From a virus: 27,385 nucleotides of DNA. The position numbers and the translations under genes are program-made. This document shows positions 8,592 to 21,456 of this stretch, one piece after another. The notes under the pieces were generated by a model. That model did no database searches, had not been told where the DNA came from, and was given only the letters and a program-made list of their open reading frames with translations. The DNA is taken from positions 1-27,385 of IMG/VR virus record IMGVR_UViG_3300027749_000422; one strand, given 5' to 3'. Within the stretch, counting starts at the first letter, position 1; each line of letters opens with the position of its first letter.

Positions 8592-10042
8592 AAGATTACG
8601 GACTTGAGGTCCAACGATTATTCCTAGAGATGATGTTGGAGGATGCGGCCAGTTACGTGCGTGTTCAAAACATCTATAACCCTGCAAACTTTGACCGCAG
8701 TCTTAGACCTGCGGCTGAGTTTATCAAGGAACACAGTGACAAGCACAAGACCATGCCTGACAGGACACAGATTTTGGCCACAACTGGGATCAAACTTGCC
8801 CCGGTACCAGAACTAAACGAAGGGCACTATGACTGGTTCATGCAGGAGTTTGAATCATTTACCAAGCGTCAAGAACTTGAACGTGCAATCTTAAAGTCCG
8901 CAGACTTGTTGGAAAAAGGTGAGTTTGAACCGGTAGAGAAACTGATCAAGGATGCTGTACAAATAAGTTTAACCAAGGACATGGGCACAGACTATTTTGC
9001 TGATCCAGCAGGTCGTATCAACAAGTATTTTAATTCAGGTGGACAAGTATCAACAGGTTGGCCACAACTGGATAGATTGTTGTATGGTGGATTTAGTCGC
9101 GGTGAACTAAACATCTTTGCCGGCGGATCCGGATCAGGCAAGAGTCTTGTGATGATGAACATTGCACTCAACTGGTTGCAACAAGGGCTAAGTGGAGTTT
9201 ATGTCACACTAGAATTAAGTGAAGAACTTACTAGTTTAAGAACAGATGCTATGTTAACAAACATGAGCACTAAAGAGATACGCAAAGACATTGGCACAAC
9301 AGAACTCAAAGTCAAACTTGTGGCCAAAAAGTCTGGACAGTATCGAGTTAAAGGATTACCGGCACAAAGCAACATCAACGACATTCGCAGTTATATCAAA
9401 GAAGTACAGATACAAACCAATATAAAGGTTGACTTTATCATGGTAGACTATTTGGACTTGTTGATGCCGGTGAGTGCTAAAGTTTCGCCCAATGACTTGT
9501 TTGTTAAAGACAAGTATGTTTCAGAAGAACTGCGTAACTTGGCCAAGGAATTGGGTGTGCTAATGGTCACAGCAAGTCAATTGAATCGTAGTGCTGTGGA
9601 AGAGATTGAGTTCGATCACTCGCATATTTCGGGTGGCATATCCAAGATCAATACTGCTGACAACGTGTTTGGTATTTTTACAAGCAGACACATGAAAGAA
9701 AAGGGCAAGTATCAAATTCAATGTATGAAGAGTCGTAGTTCAACAGGAGTTGGCCAAAAGATTGATTTAGAATACAATATTGAAACCATGCGTATTACAG
9801 ATGCAGGTGGAGAAGAAAACGGTTACAACAAGCCCACAACAAACATCATGGATTCGATCAAGGCACGCAGTCAAGTCCGTGCCGACGAGGATGGTGTTGT
9901 AGATGAGAACGCACCTGTAAAGTGGAACCGTCCCGAAGGTATCAGTGCTTGGGAAAAACCTCCACAAGAAACCAGCAAGGTATCAGCAGATGTTCAGAGT
10001 GCAAAACTAAAACAGTTATTAGGACAAATTAAATCTCAATGA
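8585..10042 (+). CDS. replicative DNA helicase (T4 gp41 / DnaB family)
   Basis: 485 residues. It is a hexameric 5'-3' helicase of the RecA fold that would unwind the fork and recruit the primase. Walker A is GGSGSGKS (K186) and Walker B is IMVDYLDLL (D288). MVTASQLNR and the FTSRHMKEKGKYQIQCMKSR region match DnaB motifs. The start appears to be TTG 8585 (MLKDYGLEVQRLFLEMMLED), inside the last codons of the sulfotransferase-like gene; the next in-frame ATGs are at about 8630, which would drop about 15 conserved-looking residues. Its last 60 bases (9983-10042) recur in diverged form at 11007-11066, beyond the radical SAM gene. Its stop overlaps that gene as ATGA. Confidence 0.92.
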   Translation: MLKDYGLEVQRLFLEMMLEDAASYVRVQNIYNPANFDRSLRPAAEFIKEHSDKHKTMPDRTQILATTGIKLAPVPELNEGHYDWFMQEFESFTKRQELERAILKSADLLEKGEFEPVEKLIKDAVQISLTKDMGTDYFADPAGRINKYFNSGGQVSTGWPQLDRLLYGGFSRGELNIFAGGSGSGKSLVMMNIALNWLQQGLSGVYVTLELSEELTSLRTDAMLTNMSTKEIRKDIGTTELKVKLVAKKSGQYRVKGLPAQSNINDIRSYIKEVQIQTNIKVDFIMVDYLDLLMPVSAKVSPNDLFVKDKYVSEELRNLAKELGVLMVTASQLNRSAVEEIEFDHSHISGGISKINTADNVFGIFTSRHMKEKGKYQIQCMKSRSSTGVGQKIDLEYNIETMRITDAGGEENGYNKPTTNIMDSIKARSQVRADEDGVVDENAPVKWNRPEGISAWEKPPQETSKVSADVQSAKLKQLLGQIKSQ

Positions 10043-11034
10043 CATGCATTGACATTTATAAAAATATAAACATTGTTGCTCGGCAAAATGCACTAGCAAT
10101 TTCGCCTTGTTGTATATCGCCTATACGCCCATTTGAAGTAGTTGATTTTTTGAAAAACGAATACCTTGTTAGTCTTCGCAATGAGATATCTACTGGGAAG
10201 TTACCGACAGCATGTGGTATTTGTAAAAATGCCGAATCTGCTGGACTAACAAGCCGACGGCAAGGTAGCAACTCTTGGTACAAAGACCACAACCTTAACA
10301 ACAACAAGGTTGAGTTAATTCGCATGGATTACTGGACTGGTGATACATGTAATTTGGCCTGTGTAATATGCGGACCGCATAATAGTAGTGTATGGAAGCA
10401 AGAACTTGGGCTACCCAAGGAATTACAAAAATCAACGGCCAATCAGTTTTGGAAAACCGTCGACTTGAGTAATATACAATTTATACATTTCAATGGCGGC
10501 GAACCGTTGTTGAGTAAAGAGCATGTAAAATTGTTACATGCTGTTGAGCATAAAAATCAAGTACACTTAAATTACAACACTAATGGAACTATATTACCAA
10601 ATGAAGAGTTGTTGAATTTGTGGGAGCAATTTAAGTTAGTGCAACTTGATTTCAGTATCGATGACGTCGGTGAAAGATTTGAATACCAACGGTTCCCTGC
10701 AAAGTGGGCTCAGGTAACAGATAATTTGCAATGGTATATTGATAATGCGCCGCATAATTGTATGTTTGCAATCAATACATCGGTTGGTATTTTAAATCAT
10801 GCTAACCTGGACAAATTGCTAACATGGCTGCAACATAATTTCCATACCACAAGATTTACAGACCCAATAGAGTATAGACAACAACTAACCCAGGGCGTGT
10901 TTGCATTAAAAGATGCAGACAAAAGAAAATCCAAAATAATTGCTACCCTAGATTCTATTGATCAACGCCGTGGAACAAATTATCGCGCCATATTTCCGGA
11001 ATTGTTTCAGCAGATGTTCAGAGTGCAAAACTAA
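10039..11034 (+). CDS. radical SAM protein, twitch-type (cargo gene)
   Basis: 331 residues. C104, C108 and C111 form the canonical CxxxCxxC site for the SAM-binding 4Fe-4S cluster (CNLACVIC). FNGGEPLL (about 152-159) is the GGEP motif that binds the SAM amino group. Extra cysteines upstream (C24/C25, and C59 and C62 in ACGICKNAESAG) may bind another metal or cluster. Similar proteins occur in aquatic T4-like phages, with unknown targets. The start overlaps the helicase stop (ATGA). The last residues (MFRVQN) are read out of frame from a copy of the helicase 3' end, so the native C-terminus was probably lost or replaced. The IscU/IscA genes downstream could help mature it; this is inference. 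Confidence 0.85.
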   Translation: MTCIDIYKNINIVARQNALAISPCCISPIRPFEVVDFLKNEYLVSLRNEISTGKLPTACGICKNAESAGLTSRRQGSNSWYKDHNLNNNKVELIRMDYWTGDTCNLACVICGPHNSSVWKQELGLPKELQKSTANQFWKTVDLSNIQFIHFNGGEPLLSKEHVKLLHAVEHKNQVHLNYNTNGTILPNEELLNLWEQFKLVQLDFSIDDVGERFEYQRFPAKWAQVTDNLQWYIDNAPHNCMFAINTSVGILNHANLDKLLTWLQHNFHTTRFTDPIEYRQQLTQGVFALKDADKRKSKIIATLDSIDQRRGTNYRAIFPELFQQMFRVQN

Positions 11035-11066
11035 AACAACTGCTGGGACAAATCAAATCAAATTAG
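11007..11066 (+). pseudogene. remnant of the helicase gene 3' end
   Basis: This 60-base stretch encodes, in the helicase frame, ADVQSAKLKQLLGQIKSN then TAG. The intact helicase ends ADVQSAKLKQLLGQIKSQ then TGA. Bases 11007-11038 are identical to 9983-10014. After that the two differ mostly at synonymous positions, as between two related genomes. The remnant's stop overlaps the stop of the convergent fibre gene, the arrangement the original helicase presumably had before the radical SAM gene came between. Confidence 0.9.
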
Positions 11067-14000
11067 GCCGCAACGCCTTTGATCACAGCAAAGTTGATAA
11101 TAGGTGCTTCACTAGTGACACCACCAGTGGTCCATACAGTTATGTTAGCACTGCCACCTGTTGCACCTATTTGTGACACAAGTAAATTATACAAGTTGGT
11201 ACCAGATCTTTGATTCAGGATCACGACATCAGTGTTTGCTATTGCACTGTTGGTGAGTGTGAATGTGGTAGGAGTAGTATTTCCTGCAACCGTGAACAAT
11301 ACAATATTGCCAGTGACTGTGTTTAATGTAACTCCTGTTGCACGACTTGTGCCCTGAGTAACTGTTCCGCCAGCACCGGTTGCATATCCTATACCTGCAG
11401 TTGGATAGTTTGATTTAATAGAAAATGCTGACGTGATACTTGAAGTGGCTGATATTGTTCCAGTGGTCAATGCATAACCAATGGAGACATTACCACCAGT
11501 GATATTGCCACTAGAGGTAGTAATATTACCTGTTGCTGAAATCAATCCACCAGTCAAGATGTTTCCAGCAAATGTTCCCATACCTGCAGAGAAATTATTA
11601 ATACTATACATCGAAACTGTGGCGCCGCCATAATTTGCCACATACACAAATCTACCAGTTGGGTCAACAGTTACGCCGTATGGAGTAGTTCCTGTGGCAA
11701 CAGCAGTGGTTATGCTGGTCAATGCACCGGTTGACTGATCGATGCTGTACATTGAAACTGTGCCGGCGGTACTATTTGCCACATACACAAATCTACCAGT
11801 TGGGTCAACAGCCACGGCGTATGGACCAGTTCCCGCGGCAACAGCAGTGGTTATGCTGGTCAATGCACCGGTTGACTGATTGATGCTGTACATTGAAACT
11901 GTTGCACCGCCATAATTTGCCACATACACAAATCTACCAGTTGGGTCAACAGCTACGCTGAGTGGACCAGATCCTGTGGCAACAGCGGTGGTTATGCTGG
12001 TCAATGCACCAGTTGACTGATTGATGCTGTACATCGAAACTGTGTTGCCGCTACTATTTGCCACATACACAAATCTACCAGTTGGGTCAACAGCTACGTC
12101 GTATGGTCCGGCTCCTGCGGCAACAGCAGTGGTTATGCTGGTCAATGCACCAGTTGACTGATTGATGCTGTACATCGAAACTGTGCCGCCGCTATTATTT
12201 GCCACATACACAAATCTACCAGTTGGGTCAACAGCTACGCTGATTGGACCAGTTCCTGACGCAATCGCGGTGGTTATGCTGGTCAATGCACCAGTTGACT
12301 GATTGATGCTGTACATCGAAACTGTGTCGCTGGTATTATTTGTCACATACACAAATCTACCAGTTGGGTCAACAGCCACGCCGTATGGACCAGTTCCCGC
12401 GGCAACAGCAGTGGTGATACTGGTCAATGCACCAGTTGACTGATTGATGCTGTACATTGAAACTGTGGAGCCGGTACCATTTGGCACATACACAAATCTA
12501 CCAGTTGGGTCAACAGCTACGTCGTATGGTCCAGTTCCTGACGCAATCGCGGTGGTTATGCTTGTTAATTCACCGGTTCCTTTATATACTATTCCTCGAG
12601 GAGCTACCACTTGATACGGCGTTTTAACAAACGCCGTACTTAACAATGCATTTCCAGTTATGGTTCCAGTTGAACTAATCAATCCACCAGTTAATACATT
12701 TCCACCTGTAATGTTGGCCGCACTTGTGATAGTTGATGTAGCACTTATCAATCCAGCAGTTAATACGTTGCCACCAGTTATGTTGGCACTAGCCGATACC
12801 ACCGATCCCAGTATGCTTGATCCAGTAATAGTACCAGTTGAACTAATCAATCCACCAGTTAATACATTTCCACCTGTAATGTTGGCAGCACTTGTGATAG
12901 TTGATGTAGCACTTATCAATCCACCAGTTAATACATTTCCACCTGTAATGTTGGCAGCACTTGTGATAGTTGATGTAGCACTTATCAATCCACCAGTTAA
13001 TACGTTGCCACCAGTTATGTTGGCACTTACACTAACAACAGATCCTAAATGACTCGAACCGGTTACGGTGCCGGTTGAACTAACAAGTCCAGCAGTTAAT
13101 ACGTTGCCACCAGTTATGTTGGCACTTACACTAACAACAGATCCTAAATGACTTGTACCGGTTATAGTACCAGTTGAACTTATCAATCCACCGGTTAAAA
13201 TGTTACCACCGGTAATGTTGGCTGCTGATGTTATGTTGGTAGTTGCTGAAATCAATCCGCCTGTTAATATGTTACCACCGGTAATGTTACCAGCTGTGGA
13301 GAATGAACTAACTATAATGGTACCAATAATATTGCCACCTGTGATATTACCGGTGGCACTGATTAAACCAGCAGTGCGTATATTACCACCAGTTACATTA
13401 CCTATTGCACTGACGTATCCTGAGGCAGTTACATTTCCTGTAGAAAAATCACCAATGGTGATGTTGCCAAAAATATCTCCGTTTACATACAAATTACCAG
13501 CAATGCCCACACCGCCTGCCACAATCAATGCACCTGTTGTGTAACTGTTACTGGCAGTTGATGCAGCCACGTTGACTGTGTTTGTGTAGTAGTTTAAAGG
13601 ACGATTCAAATCATATATGGTAATTGTGGTTCCAGAATCAACTGTGCTGAATTTGAAGTTGTATGTGCCAGTGGCAGCAAATGTAATCACATTAGCACTA
13701 TAGCCTTGAATACCAGTAGTACCCAAGGTAACGGCCGCGGGCAGGGTCATGGTATAAGCAGTATTGGTAACAACTACATTGATAGTGAGCTCACCATAAG
13801 ATCCTGACGCAGGCCAATTGCTAAACCCCAAGCTGAAATTGCCTGTGGGAGCAATGGTTTGATATTGTGAGGCACTGTAATCTAGTGTGATTGTGCCTGA
13901 TGTGGCAGTTTGTGCAAAATACGTGTAGCTGACATCATTCAATTTCACAGCATAAATCAAATTGTCGCTCATGTTGTTGTCCAGCGTGGTTCCTGTTAAC

Positions 14001-14167
14001 GCGGCTTTGAAAACACCGTTGTTTTCAAGATCAGTAATCTCTGTTGCGGCAGTTTGAAAATTGGTTTTAATAGCAGTAAAGTTATCTCTAAAGCCCTGGG
14101 TATTATTGGGCTGGCCTGCAACGGGGTACGTGCCGTCTATGTTATTGGGGTTAATTTGACTTGTCAT
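11063..14167 (-). CDS. long tail fibre-type protein with an internal beta-propeller
   Basis: 1034 residues. The N-terminus (GTYPVAGQPNNTQGFRDNF, about 12-30) is a segment I associate with virion-attached fibre proteins of T4-like aquatic phages. Residues about 200-505 are a shaft of short repeats around NITGGN and LTGGLISAT. Residues about 532-856 hold seven copies of a 47-residue unit with AVDPTGRFVYV, a YVTN-type beta-propeller of seven blades. The tip (about 900-1034) contains the GIGYATGAGGTVTQ and FTLTNSAI segments found at the ends of many phage fibres. It probably binds a surface receptor. Expression would come from the AATAAATA box at 14187-14194, with AGGA as ribosome site. Its 3' end meets the helicase remnant. 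Confidence 0.85.
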   Translation of the reverse strand: MTSQINPNNIDGTYPVAGQPNNTQGFRDNFTAIKTNFQTAATEITDLENNGVFKAALTGTTLDNNMSDNLIYAVKLNDVSYTYFAQTATSGTITLDYSASQYQTIAPTGNFSLGFSNWPASGSYGELTINVVVTNTAYTMTLPAAVTLGTTGIQGYSANVITFAATGTYNFKFSTVDSGTTITIYDLNRPLNYYTNTVNVAASTASNSYTTGALIVAGGVGIAGNLYVNGDIFGNITIGDFSTGNVTASGYVSAIGNVTGGNIRTAGLISATGNITGGNIIGTIIVSSFSTAGNITGGNILTGGLISATTNITSAANITGGNILTGGLISSTGTITGTSHLGSVVSVSANITGGNVLTAGLVSSTGTVTGSSHLGSVVSVSANITGGNVLTGGLISATSTITSAANITGGNVLTGGLISATSTITSAANITGGNVLTGGLISSTGTITGSSILGSVVSASANITGGNVLTAGLISATSTITSAANITGGNVLTGGLISSTGTITGNALLSTAFVKTPYQVVAPRGIVYKGTGELTSITTAIASGTGPYDVAVDPTGRFVYVPNGTGSTVSMYSINQSTGALTSITTAVAAGTGPYGVAVDPTGRFVYVTNNTSDTVSMYSINQSTGALTSITTAIASGTGPISVAVDPTGRFVYVANNSGGTVSMYSINQSTGALTSITTAVAAGAGPYDVAVDPTGRFVYVANSSGNTVSMYSINQSTGALTSITTAVATGSGPLSVAVDPTGRFVYVANYGGATVSMYSINQSTGALTSITTAVAAGTGPYAVAVDPTGRFVYVANSTAGTVSMYSIDQSTGALTSITTAVATGTTPYGVTVDPTGRFVYVANYGGATVSMYSINNFSAGMGTFAGNILTGGLISATGNITTSSGNITGGNVSIGYALTTGTISATSSITSAFSIKSNYPTAGIGYATGAGGTVTQGTSRATGVTLNTVTGNIVLFTVAGNTTPTTFTLTNSAIANTDVVILNQRSGTNLYNLLVSQIGATGGSANITVWTTGGVTSEAPIINFAVIKGVAA
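11600..12570 (-). repeat. seven tandem 141-base repeats encoding propeller blades
   Basis: The string GGGTCAAC on the plus strand recurs at exact 141-base steps (11661, 11802, 11943, 12084, 12225, 12366, 12507). Each unit encodes 47 residues, with the variable part limited to a few codons around VANxxGxTVSMYS and GTGPYxVAV. Near-identity at the DNA level suggests recent expansion or ongoing gene conversion. Edges are approximate. Confidence 0.85.
12655..13390 (-). repeat. fibre-shaft repeats (NITGGN / LTGGLISAT)
   Basis: Units of 23 residues (69 bases) and longer related units of about 33 residues alternate here, built around NITGGNVLTGGLISAT and SSTGTITG. Several are identical at the DNA level over tens of bases. 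They are in frame with the fibre gene, so they are protein repeats, not a CRISPR-like array. Edges are approximate. Confidence 0.75.
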
Positions 14168-14186: not shown

Positions 14187-14194
14187 TATTTATT
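14187..14194 (-). promoter_or_regulatory. T4-like late promoter for the fibre gene (AATAAATA)
   Basis: The minus strand reads AATAAATA about 20 bases before ATG 14167, with an AGGA ribosome site between. This matches the T4 NATAAATA late octamer and the usual leader layout. Confidence 0.65.
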
Positions 14195-14209: not shown

Positions 14210-14216
14210 CTAAATA
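14210..14216 (+). promoter_or_regulatory. late promoter box (CTAAATA) for the rightward structural operon
   Basis: CTAAATA ends 19 bases before ATG 14236, leaving a leader of about 14 bases. With the minus-strand box at 14187-14194 it forms a divergent late promoter pair in a 68-base gap. Confidence 0.6.
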
Positions 14217-14235: not shown

Positions 14236-14478
14236 ATGCAGAAAAAGACCCGTAGTATACTAGAAGAACTAGACTCATTGTATGTGGAGCGTGATCGTCG
14301 ATTAATAATTGAAACTCGTGCTGACAGCATTATCGCCAGTGCCGTAAGATTGATTGAGCAGATTGAAGCGGAGTTTGGGCCCGAGCAGGCTGACAATCTC
14401 ACAAGAAAACTGCTCAATGCCATACGAACCAAAGATGCTGGAAAGTTTTCCAGATCTGTCAGGAGATCAACACCATGA
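14236..14478 (+). CDS. small helical conserved protein
   Basis: 80 residues starting MQKKTRSILEELDSLYVERD. It is highly charged and predicted helical throughout, with an RRSTP end. It overlaps the next gene by four bases (ATGA at 14475), so the two are probably co-translated and may work together. It is the first gene after a late promoter. The function is unknown. The minus-strand frame over it is a shadow. Confidence 0.65.
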   Translation: MQKKTRSILEELDSLYVERDRRLIIETRADSIIASAVRLIEQIEAEFGPEQADNLTRKLLNAIRTKDAGKFSRSVRRSTP

Positions 14479-16376
14479 ATTTGCTAGAAGGTGGAAACGT
14501 ATTTAAAAATGCAGATGGTACGCCGGTAACCCAGCGTATTAACCTAGCGGATATTCCAGGAACAGTTGCTTGGTTGGAAATGATCACTGGACTTGATCTC
14601 ACTCTAGAAAAAGACACACAAGGTGTGCCACACAAGTGGTTGGGTTCCACTGGACGCAAAGCTGATTCTGGGGACATGGATCTTGCTGTGGACGCCAACG
14701 AAATTACCAAGCCCGAACTCAAAGGTATATTAGATGCCTGGGCCACAAAAAACAAACAAGATCCCAAGCAGTGGGTCAGACTCACTGGTGAAGCTGTACA
14801 TTTTAAAACTCCCATACAAGGCGACCCCCGGCGTGGATATGTGCAAACAGACTTCATGTTCATGCCTGACATGAACTGGGGCACATTCTGGTTGGGCGGA
14901 GTTTCGGATTCCTCCTACAAAGGCATGTATCGCAACGTGCTGATGTCAAGTATTGCCAAATCACTAGGACTCAAAGCCAGTGCTAAAGGTATTATTAGCC
15001 GCCAGACAGAAAAGCCAATCACCGTGGATCCTGATCAAGCCGCAGGCATTTTACTGGGCCCAAACTACAATCGTAGCCAATTAAGTTCTGTGGAAAACAT
15101 CTACAAGGCCTTGGCTATGGATCCTGAACGTGACGCCAAACTTGCAGACTTCCGTGAATATTTGTCCAAAGCCGGCATACAAGAACCTGACATGACCATG
15201 TCTGAAAGTGAATCTGGCTGGTTGGCCCGCTTGCGTGACCGCATTGTTAATCAAGGTATGTATGCCTTGGTAGAAGCAGAACAACCAGGAGTGGGTGGCC
15301 GAGCCAAGGGCATTGAACACCTAGAAGATCTGGTGTTCCGTCGTGGCACACAAGGCATACGAGATGCCCTGGCAATTGTACAACACTCTACACAACAACC
15401 ATCAACTGTGACTGCCAAATGGGATGGCAAACCTGCTGTGATATTTGGGCGTAAACCTGCCACAGGTGAGTTTGTGTTGACAGATGGATCTGGATTCGAA
15501 GCCAAGGGCTATGATGGACTTGCTACCAGTCCAAGAATGATGGCACAAATTCAAAGCACCAGAAGCGGTGATAGAACTGAATTGATTCAAATTTACGCAA
15601 CATTATTTCCCATGTTGGAAGCCGCGTTACCACCAAACTTCCGGGGATATGTCAAGGGTGATTTGTTATACATGCAAACACCTCCTGTGATTGCTGGTAA
15701 CTATGTGTTCCGCCCCAATACTGTGGAATACAAAATTCCTGCCAAGTCTACACTGGGTCAACGCATTGGCAACAGCACAGTTGGTATTGCCATACACTCA
15801 ATGTATGCAGATGCGGGTGACGAACGTCAACCCTTGAGTGGAGTAAGATTCAACGAAGTGCCTGGCCTGTTGTTAGAAAAGCCAGCCAGCCCCCGGCAAT
15901 TACAATCTGAAACCACAGCTGAAAAACAACTCAAACAACTGATCAAAACAGATGGCAAAAACATTGATACCTTGTTCAATCCTGCAGAACTTAGATCACA
16001 CAAGATTACGGATCTAGCAAAACTTTGTGTAGACTACATCAACACCAAGGTAGGCACACCCTTAAACAAACAAACACTATTGCCGGAATTTGGCGAGTGG
16101 TTACAGACTCGGGTAACACCACAAAAGTTCCGTAATATTGTGGAATACTTGAACAGCCCCACTTCAAACACCCCTGCACTAGCGGCTGCATTTACAGCAT
16201 TTATACTATTGCATGACCTTAAAATGCACCTGTTACAACAAGCAGATACTGAGCATCCTGGGCAAGAAGGCTGGGTTATGGCCACTCCTGTGGGATATGC
16301 AAAAGCGGTAAATAGATTTGATCCCAATGCATTTGCGGCTCAAAATAGACAGAGAAACAATCCGCAACCAGCGTGA
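14475..16376 (+). CDS. fusion of nucleotidyltransferase-like and ligase-like domains
   Basis: 633 residues. Near the N-terminus, GSTGRKADSGDMDLAVD (57-73) matches the Pol-beta-type nucleotidyltransferase signature, with D67 and D69 as metal ligands. In the middle, KWDG (K315-G318) matches motif I of DNA/RNA ligases and capping enzymes, where Lys takes the AMP. RGYVKGDLLY (390-399) and VEYKIPAKS look like motifs III and V. I recall related proteins in marine T4-like phages, labelled DUF6267, without a known function. DNA or RNA end repair or genome packaging would fit; neither is shown. It lies in a late operon and overlaps its small partner upstream. Confidence 0.7.
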   Translation: MNLLEGGNVFKNADGTPVTQRINLADIPGTVAWLEMITGLDLTLEKDTQGVPHKWLGSTGRKADSGDMDLAVDANEITKPELKGILDAWATKNKQDPKQWVRLTGEAVHFKTPIQGDPRRGYVQTDFMFMPDMNWGTFWLGGVSDSSYKGMYRNVLMSSIAKSLGLKASAKGIISRQTEKPITVDPDQAAGILLGPNYNRSQLSSVENIYKALAMDPERDAKLADFREYLSKAGIQEPDMTMSESESGWLARLRDRIVNQGMYALVEAEQPGVGGRAKGIEHLEDLVFRRGTQGIRDALAIVQHSTQQPSTVTAKWDGKPAVIFGRKPATGEFVLTDGSGFEAKGYDGLATSPRMMAQIQSTRSGDRTELIQIYATLFPMLEAALPPNFRGYVKGDLLYMQTPPVIAGNYVFRPNTVEYKIPAKSTLGQRIGNSTVGIAIHSMYADAGDERQPLSGVRFNEVPGLLLEKPASPRQLQSETTAEKQLKQLIKTDGKNIDTLFNPAELRSHKITDLAKLCVDYINTKVGTPLNKQTLLPEFGEWLQTRVTPQKFRNIVEYLNSPTSNTPALAAAFTAFILLHDLKMHLLQQADTEHPGQEGWVMATPVGYAKAVNRFDPNAFAAQNRQRNNPQPA

Positions 16377-16390
16377 TTTTTCCAAACTGA

Positions 16391-16397
16391 CTAAATA
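16391..16397 (+). promoter_or_regulatory. late promoter box (CTAAATA)
   Basis: CTAAATA 45 bases upstream of ATG 16442, followed by an AAAGGA ribosome site just before the start. A strong terminator after the gene makes this a single-gene late unit. Confidence 0.7.
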
Positions 16398-17636: not shown

Positions 17637-18109
17637 CCCGTGACCAAAAATTAGAACAGTGGGCAGAACGTGAACTGTCCCGCAATATTAGCGAAATGAT
17701 AATCGACGATGAACAGGGCGGGATTATAGCATTTGGCAAGTATTATATTAGCCCTGATAAAACTGGGTTCTCAGTACGTACCTGGGATAGAGAAATACAT
17801 AATTTCACTACCAAAAGAATAGCAATGTCATGGTGCACCGTGGACCATAAACAACAATACAACTTAGCCAATACAATTTTTGTATTGGACTGTAAAAAAC
17901 AAGCACTAGCGGCGGACATATACTGCCGTAAGACACTGGGTGAACGTGGCCGGCATGAATCATTTTATGAAATAATAAACATGAAATTACAACCCAAAAT
18001 AGACCAGTATAATTCAGTCAGCAACGAATTAGAAAAATGTGTAAACCAAGCTAAATATATACAAATTAGAGGATTCAATAATGAAACTGCAAGAACTATC
18101 GGCTCTTAA
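17633..18109 (+). CDS. conserved phage protein with helical C-terminus
   Basis: 158 residues (MTRDQKLEQWAERELSRNIS). The N-terminal half has beta-type segments (GGIIAFGKYYISPD). The C-terminal half is helical, with a YIQIRGFNNETART end that I recall in marine T4-like conserved hypotheticals. The start overlaps the previous stop. The 3' end overlaps the next gene by 29 bases, as its ATG at 18081 lies inside the GFNNETART codons. The function is unknown. Confidence 0.65.
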   Translation: MTRDQKLEQWAERELSRNISEMIIDDEQGGIIAFGKYYISPDKTGFSVRTWDREIHNFTTKRIAMSWCTVDHKQQYNLANTIFVLDCKKQALAADIYCRKTLGERGRHESFYEIINMKLQPKIDQYNSVSNELEKCVNQAKYIQIRGFNNETARTIGS

Positions 18110-18980
18110 GCCAAGTAAACAAATCGCCAAAGTATTCGAAAGTTATTTTGGATCACGTATCCGTTTTGATCAATTAACTCGTGGACAAACACAAGCCATG
18201 TTGCAAAAGGTGCAAGGCGTGTTGCGCGAGCATCGTGGAACTACCGCACGTCACCACAGTGAAAAGAATCCCAAGTACTTGCAGTTGGTCATGATGGAAC
18301 AAGCATTGTCAAGCCGCTTAAAAGAAGCCGCATTGCCTGCCATGCCCGGAGCCGCTCCTGCTACTGGCGGAGTTGCCGCACCGGCTGCTACTAGTACCGC
18401 TCCTAATCCTGCATTAGTTGCCGCAAAGAAGAAATTATCATCTGGACAAACATTGAGCCCGCAAGAACAAGAGTTGATCAATGCACAGGCTCAACTTACT
18501 GCTGAAAGCCGTTTGCGTCGTGCAATGCATCGACTGAATGAATCAGAAGTACAACAAGCTCAAGTGGTGTTAGCCGCACAAGACATGGTTGACAAAATGC
18601 AAGGCATGTTGGAAGACGTTACAGAATTGCAATTTAAAGAATTGCCTGCATTAGTTGATTCAATCAAGAATCAAGTGGGCATGGAACAAGCACAACGATT
18701 CAATGCAGATGCCACAGCCGCTCTTGCTGGCCTGGTTGGCAATTTGCAAGGCGCTAAACAACAACTTGATGCTGCGCTTGGTGTGGTAACAGGTCAAACT
18801 CCTCCTGCCGCTGCCGCCGGTGCAATGGGTGCAGATATCGCAGCCGGTGCCGCTGACATGAATGCCGCTGGTGCCGACATGGCTGCCGCTGATGACATGG
18901 GTGCAGATTTAGATGCTGAGTTACCACCTGAGCCAGGAATGGAACCTCCCGCAGCCGCATTGGGTCGTGGCCGCAGATAA
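18081..18980 (+). CDS. helical structural or assembly protein with Ala/Pro-rich linkers
   Basis: 299 residues. Well-ordered helical parts (about 1-85 and 140-235, including LNESEVQQAQVVLAAQDMVD) alternate with low-complexity linkers rich in Ala, Pro and Gly (about 86-112 and 236-299). I recall relatives in marine T4-like phages as virion-associated or head-assembly proteins; this is not certain. A 29-base overlap with the upstream gene and a TAATG join to the next suggest coupled translation. The acidic, disordered tail ends GRGRR. The minus-strand frames here are shadows of the Ala codons. Confidence 0.65.
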   Translation: MKLQELSALKPSKQIAKVFESYFGSRIRFDQLTRGQTQAMLQKVQGVLREHRGTTARHHSEKNPKYLQLVMMEQALSSRLKEAALPAMPGAAPATGGVAAPAATSTAPNPALVAAKKKLSSGQTLSPQEQELINAQAQLTAESRLRRAMHRLNESEVQQAQVVLAAQDMVDKMQGMLEDVTELQFKELPALVDSIKNQVGMEQAQRFNADATAALAGLVGNLQGAKQQLDAALGVVTGQTPPAAAAGAMGADIAAGAADMNAAGADMAAADDMGADLDAELPPEPGMEPPAAALGRGRR

Positions 18981-20445: not shown

Positions 20446-20751
20446 ATGAAAAAGTTCCTAATCGCAATGTTAATTCTAGCCAGCACTGGCGCAATGGCAC
20501 AACACCGTCATCAGGGCGGATATGGATATAGAGGCAACTGGATTGCCCCGGCCATAATCGGCGGTGTGATTGGTTACGGTTTGACCCGTAACTATTACGA
20601 GCCTTACTATGTGCCTGCTCCTGTTATAGTACAGCAACAACCGGTTATAGTTCAGACACCATACTATAATCAAACGCCAAATTGCACAGTATGGACCGAG
20701 GTACAAGATCAGGATGGTACTATTACCAGAACAAGGACTTGTCGACAATGA
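20446..20751 (+). CDS. small secreted protein with signal peptide
   Basis: 101 residues. Lys2-Lys3, a hydrophobic core ([12 protein letters not shown]) and AMA before Gln19 form a standard signal peptidase I signal. The mature part begins with a His/Gly/Tyr-rich stretch ([14 protein letters not shown]), then a small glycine-zipper-like hydrophobic patch ([14 protein letters not shown]), then a Pro/Val/Gln linker and a short end with two cysteines (NCTVW ... RTCRQ) that may pair in the periplasm. It has the strongest promoter and an AAGGAG site, so it is made early and in quantity. An envelope role, such as blocking superinfection, is inference. The stop overlaps the glutaredoxin ATG. Confidence 0.7.
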
Positions 20752-21077
20752 AACTAAGAGCAATGAACACAGACACAGAACTAACAATTGATCAAATAAT
20801 AAAAGATCATGCAGTCGTATTGTTTATGAAAGGAACAGCACAGTTTCCCATGTGTGGATTTTCTGGTCGGGCTATACAACTATTAAAAGAATGTGGAATT
20901 AAATCTCCTCACACTATAAATGTATTGGAAAACAACAATATTAGACAAAAGATTAAAGAATACAGCAGTTGGCCTACTATTCCTCAATTGTATGTGCATG
21001 GAGAATTTATTGGCGGTTCAGACATTATGACAGAAATGTTTGAGTCAGGCGAATTACAACAGTTATTAAAGGACTAA
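20748..21077 (+). CDS. grxD: monothiol glutaredoxin, CGFS type (Grx4/GrxD)
   Basis: 109 residues. [14 protein letters not shown] has the CGFS active site (C36), which with glutathione holds a bridging 2Fe-2S cluster. [19 protein letters not shown] carries the cis-Pro and the GG-D glutathione-binding loop. The length matches E. coli GrxD. CGFS proteins pass Fe-S clusters to carriers such as IscA and are poor general reductants. ATG 20748 overlaps the upstream stop (ATGA); ATG 20763 is a possible shorter start. IscU follows with one base between. The three Fe-S genes look like one borrowed host module. Confidence 0.92.
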
Positions 21078-21078
21078 T

Positions 21079-21456
21079 ATGGCATACTCACAACAAGTAA
21101 TCGATCACTATGAAAATCCACGCAACGTTGGCAAGTTCGATGCTGACGACGTCACTATTGGTACAGGCATGGTAGGAGCACCTGCCTGCGGTGACGTAAT
21201 GAAACTACAAATCAAGGTAATAGATGGCATTATCACAGACGCAAAATTTAAGACATACGGATGCGGCTCGGCGATTGCAAGCAGTTCTCTGGTTACTGAA
21301 TGGGTCAAGGGCAAAACGCTTGACCAGGCATCAAGCCTCAAGAATTCACAAATTGCTGAAGAACTCAGCCTTCCTCCGGTCAAGATACATTGTTCGATAC
21401 TCGCTGAGGATGCTATCAAAGCCGCGGTAGAGAACTATCGAAAGAAGCATGCCTAA
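21079..21456 (+). CDS. iscU: IscU Fe-S cluster assembly scaffold
   Basis: 125 residues, near the full bacterial length. The ligands C37 (APACGD, with D39), C62 (YGCGSAIAS), H104 and C105 (IHCS) are all present. LPPVK (98-102), the sequence that the HscA chaperone grips, is intact, so the protein should work with host IscS, HscB and HscA, which are not encoded here. The cluster would go to phage or host targets such as the radical SAM protein. It lies directly after the glutaredoxin gene. The 3' end overlaps the SGNH-like gene by eight bases. In many proteobacteria iscA follows iscU directly; here that order is interrupted by cargo. Confidence 0.95.
   Translation: MAYSQQVIDHYENPRNVGKFDADDVTIGTGMVGAPACGDVMKLQIKVIDGIITDAKFKTYGCGSAIASSSLVTEWVKGKTLDQASSLKNSQIAEELSLPPVKIHCSILAEDAIKAAVENYRKKHA

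Follow-up and report, generated by a model that had tools for sequence, protein, structure and literature searches.

What would a phage do with a polypeptide that seems able both to extend a polynucleotide end and to seal it, and that is encoded, behind a late-type signal, among genes for virion proteins? The question is raised by P0001, a gene of the virus record IMGVR_UViG_3300027749_000422 (IMG/VR), of which positions 1-27,385, the whole stretch of 27,385 nucleotides (nt) that was analysed, are called the window. P0001 lies at 14475..16376 on the + strand, starts with ATG and encodes 633 residues; the open reading frame (ORF) and the presence in it of both a nucleotidyltransferase (NTase) and a ligase signature had been described in the original prediction, and both read as given there. 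We think it somewhat probable that P0001 is a two-domain enzyme that fills gaps and seals nicks in the phage's own DNA, made late and possibly carried in the head. The pairing of a family X polymerase (PolX) with a ligase is already known; its arrangement in P0001, with a DUF6267 domain and in a phage, is new. An active enzyme would give these T4-type phages a second means of sealing, in addition to an ordinary ligase and made late with the particle. DUF6267, a Pfam family whose function is unknown and whose members come mostly from T4-like cyanophages, also gains a function that can be tested. Published work is cited below by PMC number.

Two predicted domains in one polypeptide

In the AlphaFold2 model of full-length P0001, built from 36 aligned sequences (mean predicted local distance difference test score, pLDDT, 81.6; predicted template modelling score, pTM, 0.51), a first domain at about residues 7-235 (14493..15179, +) and a second at residues 279-630 (15309..16364, +) are joined by a linker of low confidence (residues 241-278; 15195..15308, +). 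The first is predicted to have a palm and a thumb like those of family X DNA polymerases, without the lyase domain. Indeed, the best 50 of 248 Foldseek matches in the PDB are all family X polymerases (best E for this half 8e-4, the sole row below 0.001 among the matches listed), and the 50 matches listed by VIA are all Pol beta, lambda, mu or TdT (Z 9.9-10.4, root-mean-square deviation (rmsd) 3.2-3.8, 160-182 residues). The best of these is Pol beta (Z 10.4, rmsd 3.2, 162 residues), with which Pol lambda, mu and TdT tie, and it places model residues 11-207 on Pol beta 140-335, that is, palm and thumb; the listed Pol beta rows end at 329-335, at residues 201-207 of the predicted model, and thus take in the family X thumb. 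None of them aligns before Pol beta residue 97, and the chain has no room ahead for the 8-kDa lyase domain. In a library of viral structures, the giant-virus matches include two annotated as family X polymerases (ranks 30 and 33; E 2.8e-4 and 8.6e-4) and two annotated as DNA-directed DNA polymerases (ranks 35 and 36). The features of the family X palm are present as well. The block GSTGRKADSGDMD occupies residues 57-69 (14643..14681, +), as the original prediction had it, with the GS pair at 57-58 and the predicted metal-binding residues D67 and D69, and the third carboxylate is D126 (14850..14852, +), a predicted catalytic aspartate within VQTDFM (QTDFM, 124-128) that is invariant in 39 of 39 NTase domains, three of them from jumbo phages; G57, S58, D67 and D69 are likewise invariant when these three are included. 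Since neither the Pfam polymerase X model, at E up to 1, nor a PDB profile search gave a match in P0001, this half is called PolX-like here and is not filed as a member of the family. A generic nucleotidyltransferase or a CCA-type enzyme is disfavoured, all 50 listed rows of each comparison with the PDB, in which Pol beta is over-represented, being family X.

The second half resembles, weakly but consistently, the adenylation domain of ATP-dependent ligases. Its residues 280-615 match Pfam DUF6267 (PF19782; E 4.3e-29, 102.5 bits against a curated cut-off of 27), a family that is also over its cut-off in six of six relatives and is the only Pfam match in P0001 at E up to 1, hence no sequence of the NAD+-dependent LigA type is present at that threshold. 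When this domain was modelled alone (pLDDT 88.1, pTM 0.82), every one of Foldseek ranks 1-25 was a ligase or an end-joining complex that includes a ligase chain, and such structures made up 49 of the 50 matches listed by VIA (Z 5.0-5.9). The ligase motifs can be read in order along the + strand: motif I, KWDG, at residues 315-318 (15417..15428), with K315 as the predicted adenylated lysine; motif III in YVKGD (15648..15662; GDLL, 395-398), with Asp396; motif IIIa at F412 (15708..15710), assigned by eye; motif IV, EGWV, at 598-601 (16266..16277), with E598; and motif V, KAVNR (16302..16316; KAVNRF, 610-615), with K610. All five named residues are invariant in the 36 aligned proteins, and in the model about 120 residues, mostly helical, separate motif IIIa from motif IV. 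It is because the match list is consistent and the motifs follow in this order that the domain is read as a ligase-like adenylation domain. The position and numbering of K315 in the original prediction were correct, and its plausible motifs III and V have now been located. The literature available to a text search contained no mention of DUF6267, so no earlier ligase reading was seen. By tblastn, P0001 finds 296 phage records, 284 of which are named as Synechococcus, cyanophage or Prochlorococcus phages.

The fusion is well conserved. Its relatives are environmental virus contigs; the gene is present at 138 loci (that of the window, L081, included), and at 135 of them both motif blocks stand in a single ORF, the remaining three (L057, L068 and L080) being ORFs of 523-555 aa that start at the first bases of their contigs. 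All six motif patterns are kept in every one of the 132 ORFs of at least 620 aa, the window's included, of which 106 are distinct across the last 600 residues, and identity among the 36 aligned proteins goes down to 62%. In 20,000 shuffles of P0001 the GS..GDxD pattern never arose and KWDG arose in 0.3%, the six patterns taken singly ranging from 0 to 2.9%. A scan of bacterial genome contigs, based on two peptide patterns of the ligase half, found no relative, nor did a plasmid search with that half. The Gp23 capsid family was detected in three of seven long relatives, whose completeness is unstated, and the long relatives look T4-type. A nucleotidyltransferase-like and a ligase-like domain thus appear to share one polypeptide, with conserved motif residues and predicted folds of the right kinds. 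The structure prediction proposed at the outset, which was to reveal any fold lacking either active-site pocket, found neither wanting at the level of fold and motif, the ligase match being the weak one. The two signatures have been sharpened, to family X for the first half and, with that weak fold match, to DUF6267 for the second.

A unit with a late-type signal and its counterparts in other phages

P0001 is preceded by an ORF of 80 aa (14236..14478, +) that overlaps it by 4 nt and matches PHROG 11854, a virion structural protein (E 2.9e-14). The sequence CTAAATA, resembling a T4-type late promoter, stands 26 nt upstream of this ORF (14210..14216, +), and the next copy (16391..16397, +) starts 15 nt past the P0001 stop, both at positions conserved in relatives. 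The test for [AC]TAAATA ahead of the 80-aa ORF covered the loci, the window left out, in which a pattern found this ORF with 60 nt before it (45 of 138 were dropped), and all 92 of them have the motif at a distance of 24-29 nt; it was found within 100 nt after the stop of the fused gene in 124 of 129 others. With one locus per cluster of 88% identity, window included, the figures are 26/26 and 30/34, and inside the gene bodies the motif occurs once in 268,545 nt. CTAAATA has been reported as a putative late motif of phage Aeh1, that of T4 being TATAAATA (PMC1524935), and NATAAATA is given as the late motif of S-PM2 (PMC2984593). A unit made of the 80-aa ORF and P0001, late by its signal, is supported in this way. 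The late operon had been asserted without this signal in evidence and is supported, as are the adjoining virion-type genes: besides PHROG 11854, a downstream ORF (18081..18980, +) belongs to PHROG 14154, a virion structural family, and is by eye the counterpart of EST35_0237 of phage PA5oct, which was annotated by electrospray ionization tandem mass spectrometry (ESI-MS/MS).

Counterparts of the two halves lie together in jumbo phages. PA5oct, Atu_ph07 and Phosso have the same NTase family as a separate protein, 28-30% identical to the NTase of P0001, and in these three and in a 462-kb contig (L153) the NTase gene comes after an ORF that has EK[LI]DG early and EGxV...K further on, within its second half. 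The two genes overlap in all but PA5oct, where two others lie between them. Among 50,697 phage records, the ligase-like protein of L153 matched 14 (database duplicates counted), and the NTase half, at E <1e-4, matched by accession the identical 14. Like P0001, the pair in PA5oct, Atu_ph07 and Phosso has an ORF of about 80 aa upstream (counterparts of the 80-aa ORF can be made out by eye in these three and in L153), with a DnaB helicase ahead of it in Atu_ph07 and Phosso; unlike P0001, it consists of two genes with the ligase first. The jumbo ligase-like proteins were not linked to DUF6267 by profile comparison. The link is one of structure and leads to the 446-aa protein of PA5oct, at E 1.1e-5 in a search with P0001; the 324-aa protein of Atu_ph07, which the viral structure library labels RNA ligase, came at E 0.01. 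Lak phages were not counted, their NTase matches being six weak rows at E 0.2-0.3, with no KxDG ORF within 4 kb in Lak-A2 by a script scan.

The T4-like cyanophages, to whose DUF6267 family residues 280-615 of P0001 belong, show another arrangement. In each of the five examined, a cytidylyltransferase-like protein comes after DUF6267; its Pfam match exceeds the cut-off in S-PM2, S-SM1 and S-SZBM1, reaches it in MED4-213 and falls short of it in S-RSM4. The DUF6267 protein includes no Pol beta-type NTase in these phages; the domain stands alone or, in S-PM2, its C-terminal half is joined to a HIGH-type cytidylyltransferase in one ORF. Motifs I, III, IV and V are readable in the DUF6267 proteins of S-RSM4, MED4-213 and S-SM1. 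The ligase-like domain thus meets two different nucleotidyltransferase superfamilies, in three phage arrangements: fused to a PolX-like domain, encoded next to a separate PolX-like protein, and either ahead of a HIGH-type enzyme or in one chain with it. In S-PM2 (L150:8026-9805) DUF6267 is split into T4-GC71 and the front of T4-GC190, and the viral structure library has a 591-aa S-PM2 protein; the split may be a matter of annotation or of sequence. A nuclease as a further member of the module was considered and dropped: S-RSM4 ORF 065 and PA5oct EST35_0229 are nuclease-like by eye, and they have no Pfam match and no mutual similarity.

Some of the NTase partners are likely virion proteins. In PA5oct, the NTase EST35_0231 and 11 others of 18 features in a 12-kb stretch are annotated as structural by ESI-MS/MS. 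In Atu_ph07, 29 proteins of the cluster of coding sequences 31-76 were seen in virions, a range that includes the helicase gp70 (PMC6102473), and by our count the ligase-like/NTase pair lies a few genes from gp70. The cytidylyltransferase of S-SM1 was found in virions (PMC3037559) and has no DUF6267 part. Authors working on cyanophages caution about carry-over in virion preparations (PMC10665884, PMC9602691). What the virion data cover is thus the NTase side of these pairs and not the ligase. An argument from cyanophage virions in favour of the ligase was abandoned: T4-GC190 had first been assumed to contain the DUF6267 half because it does so in S-PM2, and in S-SM1 the T4-GC190 protein is a separate cytidylyltransferase, beside a DUF6267 protein that is complete alone.

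Proposed gap filling and sealing weighed against other functions

If both domains work as their folds suggest, the N-terminal one would probably extend a 3' end, or fill a short gap, by one or a few nucleotides, and the DUF6267 domain, a divergent covalent adenylyltransferase, would probably take AMP on K315 and seal the nick that remains. Apparently made late, beside head and virion proteins, P0001 would most likely mend phage DNA around packaging or on entry, and it may be carried in the head. A role as the replicative ligase is unlikely, as an ordinary DNA ligase (PF01068, about 460 aa) is encoded elsewhere in six of the seven long relatives, which makes P0001 an extra, second ligase; PF09414 was matched in four of the seven at the places of PF01068, and no further RNA ligase was seen in them. 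The original prediction, in which packaging, maturation of virion DNA or repair after injection had been envisaged, is partly supported overall.

Several observations weigh against this reading. No sequence method connects either half with a solved enzyme. The PDB is saturated with Pol beta, and other nucleotidyltransferases could sit just below the rows listed for the first half. As to the second, the best Foldseek E is 0.037, with none below 0.001, and VIA gave no match at Z 8; motif III has Asp396 where most ligases have Glu, an Asp that is common to the proteins of cyanophages S-RSM4 and MED4-213 (QGDLL); and the OB domain with motif VI is absent, the chain stopping 23 residues past K610. 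Ku and uracil glycosylase were found in none of the seven long relatives, whose records may be fragments, and AP (apurinic/apyrimidinic) endonuclease in none over the cut-off, with one match below it; no partners of a pathway are thus seen, which lends no support to end joining or to a full base excision pathway. The late-promoter-like motif occurs 10 times in the window, not above chance (shuffle mean 11.8), so the late signal rests on the placement of the motif, and the exact TATAAATA is absent from the window. Finally, the ligase-like protein of PA5oct, EST35_0228, carries no mass spectrometry annotation, and the table of 30 virion proteins of S-SZBM1 has the cytidylyltransferase _140 and ORF _139, not the DUF6267 protein _141 (PMC9146016).

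Among the alternatives, RNA repair on the model of RlaP survives best, unlikely as it is: the NTase would restore the nucleotides that a tRNA or another RNA has lost on cleavage, and the ligase would reseal this RNA, countering host anticodon nucleases. RlaP, a Pol beta-superfamily NTase with a predicted role in RNA repair, accompanies the RNA ligases Rnl1 and Rnl2 in jumbo phages, and like P0001 it would work with a covalent ligase (PMC7824862). In the VIA comparison of the ligase half, RNA ligases come first (Naegleria 5.9, REL1 5.8), tied with DNA ligases, the label of the Atu_ph07 protein points the same way, and three of the four jumbo ligase-like proteins weakly touch Pfam RNA_ligase (E 0.002-0.085, below cut-off). 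The RlaP model (PF10127), however, has no match in P0001, in any of the seven long relatives or in four of five other records, and its one occurrence in 12 records overall is at another place in Atu_ph07. tRNA genes are present in one of the seven long relatives and absent from the window; together with the missing RlaP, this weakens RNA repair. The resemblance of the first half to DNA polymerases with a thumb, the late signal and the setting among virion genes also count against it.

Quite unlikely is a virion-delivered effector, in which the NTase, as do other enzymes that enter the cell with T4-type DNA, would modify a small molecule or a protein of the host, the ligase half serving to bind or to modify itself. 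The mass spectrometry annotation of the PA5oct NTase would suit it, as would the HIGH-type cytidylyltransferases beside cyanophage DUF6267 in S-SM1 and S-SZBM1 virions and the place of the Atu_ph07 pair, one gene ahead of repeated ORFs that by eye resemble internal proteins; the six catalytic patterns kept in all full-length ORFs speak against it, and the thumb suggests a nucleic acid as substrate. End joining of the phage genome in the manner of LigD would fill and join DNA ends, for example to make genomes circular or to reunite broken ones; in its favour, human Pol mu and LigIV structures are among the matches listed. The bacterial LigD likewise unites a polymerase with a ligase in a single chain; it has a primase-type polymerase and works with Ku. 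Given that Ku was found in none of the long relatives and that T4-type phages recombine ends by homology, this function is very unlikely. A catalytically dead structural or scaffolding protein that has retained old folds, to which the Asp of motif III, the weak ligase match and the virion-gene setting might point, is scarcely credible beside catalytic patterns kept in 132 of 132 full-length ORFs and, among those aligned, down to 62% identity.

The pairing also has its precedents in two known systems of the kind, repairing and sealing ends, to which the original prediction had appealed. One is the RlaP NTases with their RNA ligases, discussed above; ASFV (African swine fever virus) PolX, a polymerase that is not known to be fused to a ligase, is a further term of comparison for the first half alone. 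The closest is PgVPolX of Phaeocystis globosa virus, a PolX-ligase fusion that fills and seals gaps in vitro and that, like P0001, has an N-terminal Pol beta-like core and a C-terminal ligase in a DNA virus (PMC5537341). It differs in coming from a eukaryotic giant virus, in its NAD+-dependent DNA ligase and in its dRP (deoxyribose phosphate) lyase activity, whereas P0001, from a phage, has no lyase domain and a DUF6267 ligase-like domain. ASFV PolX, which is among the Foldseek rows listed, is small and without the 8-kDa domain (PMC5537341), as the N-terminal half of P0001 is.

Possible head targeting and neighbouring genes

P0001 begins with MNLLE (14475..14489, +) before an invariant GGNVF, and this [VIL]xE|GG arrangement, present in 36 of 36 aligned proteins, the window's included, may correspond to a T4-type prohead protease site. 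Residues 1-6 have pLDDT <50, and the segment ahead of the putative site is only five residues long; the NTases of Atu_ph07 and Phosso begin with GG after Met, and cleavage of P0001 at the site would leave an equal start. Peptidase_S77 gave no match in the seven long relatives, and the controls likewise gave none. Many relatives have an extra ORF starting M[QRK][IL]xE[ILVF] between the 80-aa ORF and the fused gene (88 distinct among the 138 loci); the unit of the window is without this MQIHEIT-type ORF. A first, stricter pattern, [VIL]xE[AGS] in residues 7-24, was present in 33 of 88 of the intervening ORFs, its frequency in the controls being 6 of 1128 windows and 5.8% of shuffles; [VILM]xE in residues 8-20, a pattern widened after the sequences had been seen, whose figure is accordingly not independent, occurs in 56 of 64 dereplicated ORFs and in 78 of 88 overall, compared with 33 of 1160 control windows. 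We infer that the start of these ORFs resembles a T4-type head-targeting peptide, of the kind that is removed by T4-type prohead proteases (PMC5694885).

Two further starts touch on this subject. In Atu_ph07 (L083:7558-11735), five successive ORFs begin one gene past the NTase, four of them with M[RK]W[HD]QL and one with MRLFQL; PLYRG is common to four and the last has YVYRG, and by eye they resemble head-packaged ADP-ribosyltransferases. The virion cytidylyltransferase of S-SM1 (L151:5893-7056) begins MKKFSAFLNEA, much like the head-targeting peptide of T4.

A more specific form of the preferred reading, possible and yet doubtful, would have the PolX-ligase loaded into T4-type heads, processed at LxE|GG by the prohead protease and ejected with the DNA, so that gaps and nicks due to the environment or to packaging are filled and sealed on entry; the jumbo pair of ligase and PolX-like NTase, and cyanophage DUF6267 with its HIGH-type nucleotidyltransferase, would then have an equal role.

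Upstream of the unit lies a divergent gene (11063-14167, -), 1034 aa in the window, with beta-propeller matches and a late-promoter-like motif of its own, ATAAATA (14187..14193, -). The pair 14193/14210 that this motif forms with the one ahead of the 80-aa ORF keeps its 17-nt spacing in 84 of 92 other loci; a second divergent pair of [AC]TAAATA in the window is 5835/5857, and a third pair, 331/361, faces inward. Relatives of the divergent gene (L103:3057-4928, L063:3593-4909 and L048:4029-4946) start with MTSQINP, followed soon after by YPVA.QPNNTQGFRDNF, and vary in length (305, 438 and 623 aa); the gene may encode a fast-changing virion adhesin. The window also contains a NifU-like gene (21079-21456; E 1.5e-51), a glutaredoxin gene (20682-21077) and a radical SAM gene (10039-11034), perhaps an iron-sulfur cluster set in a phage.

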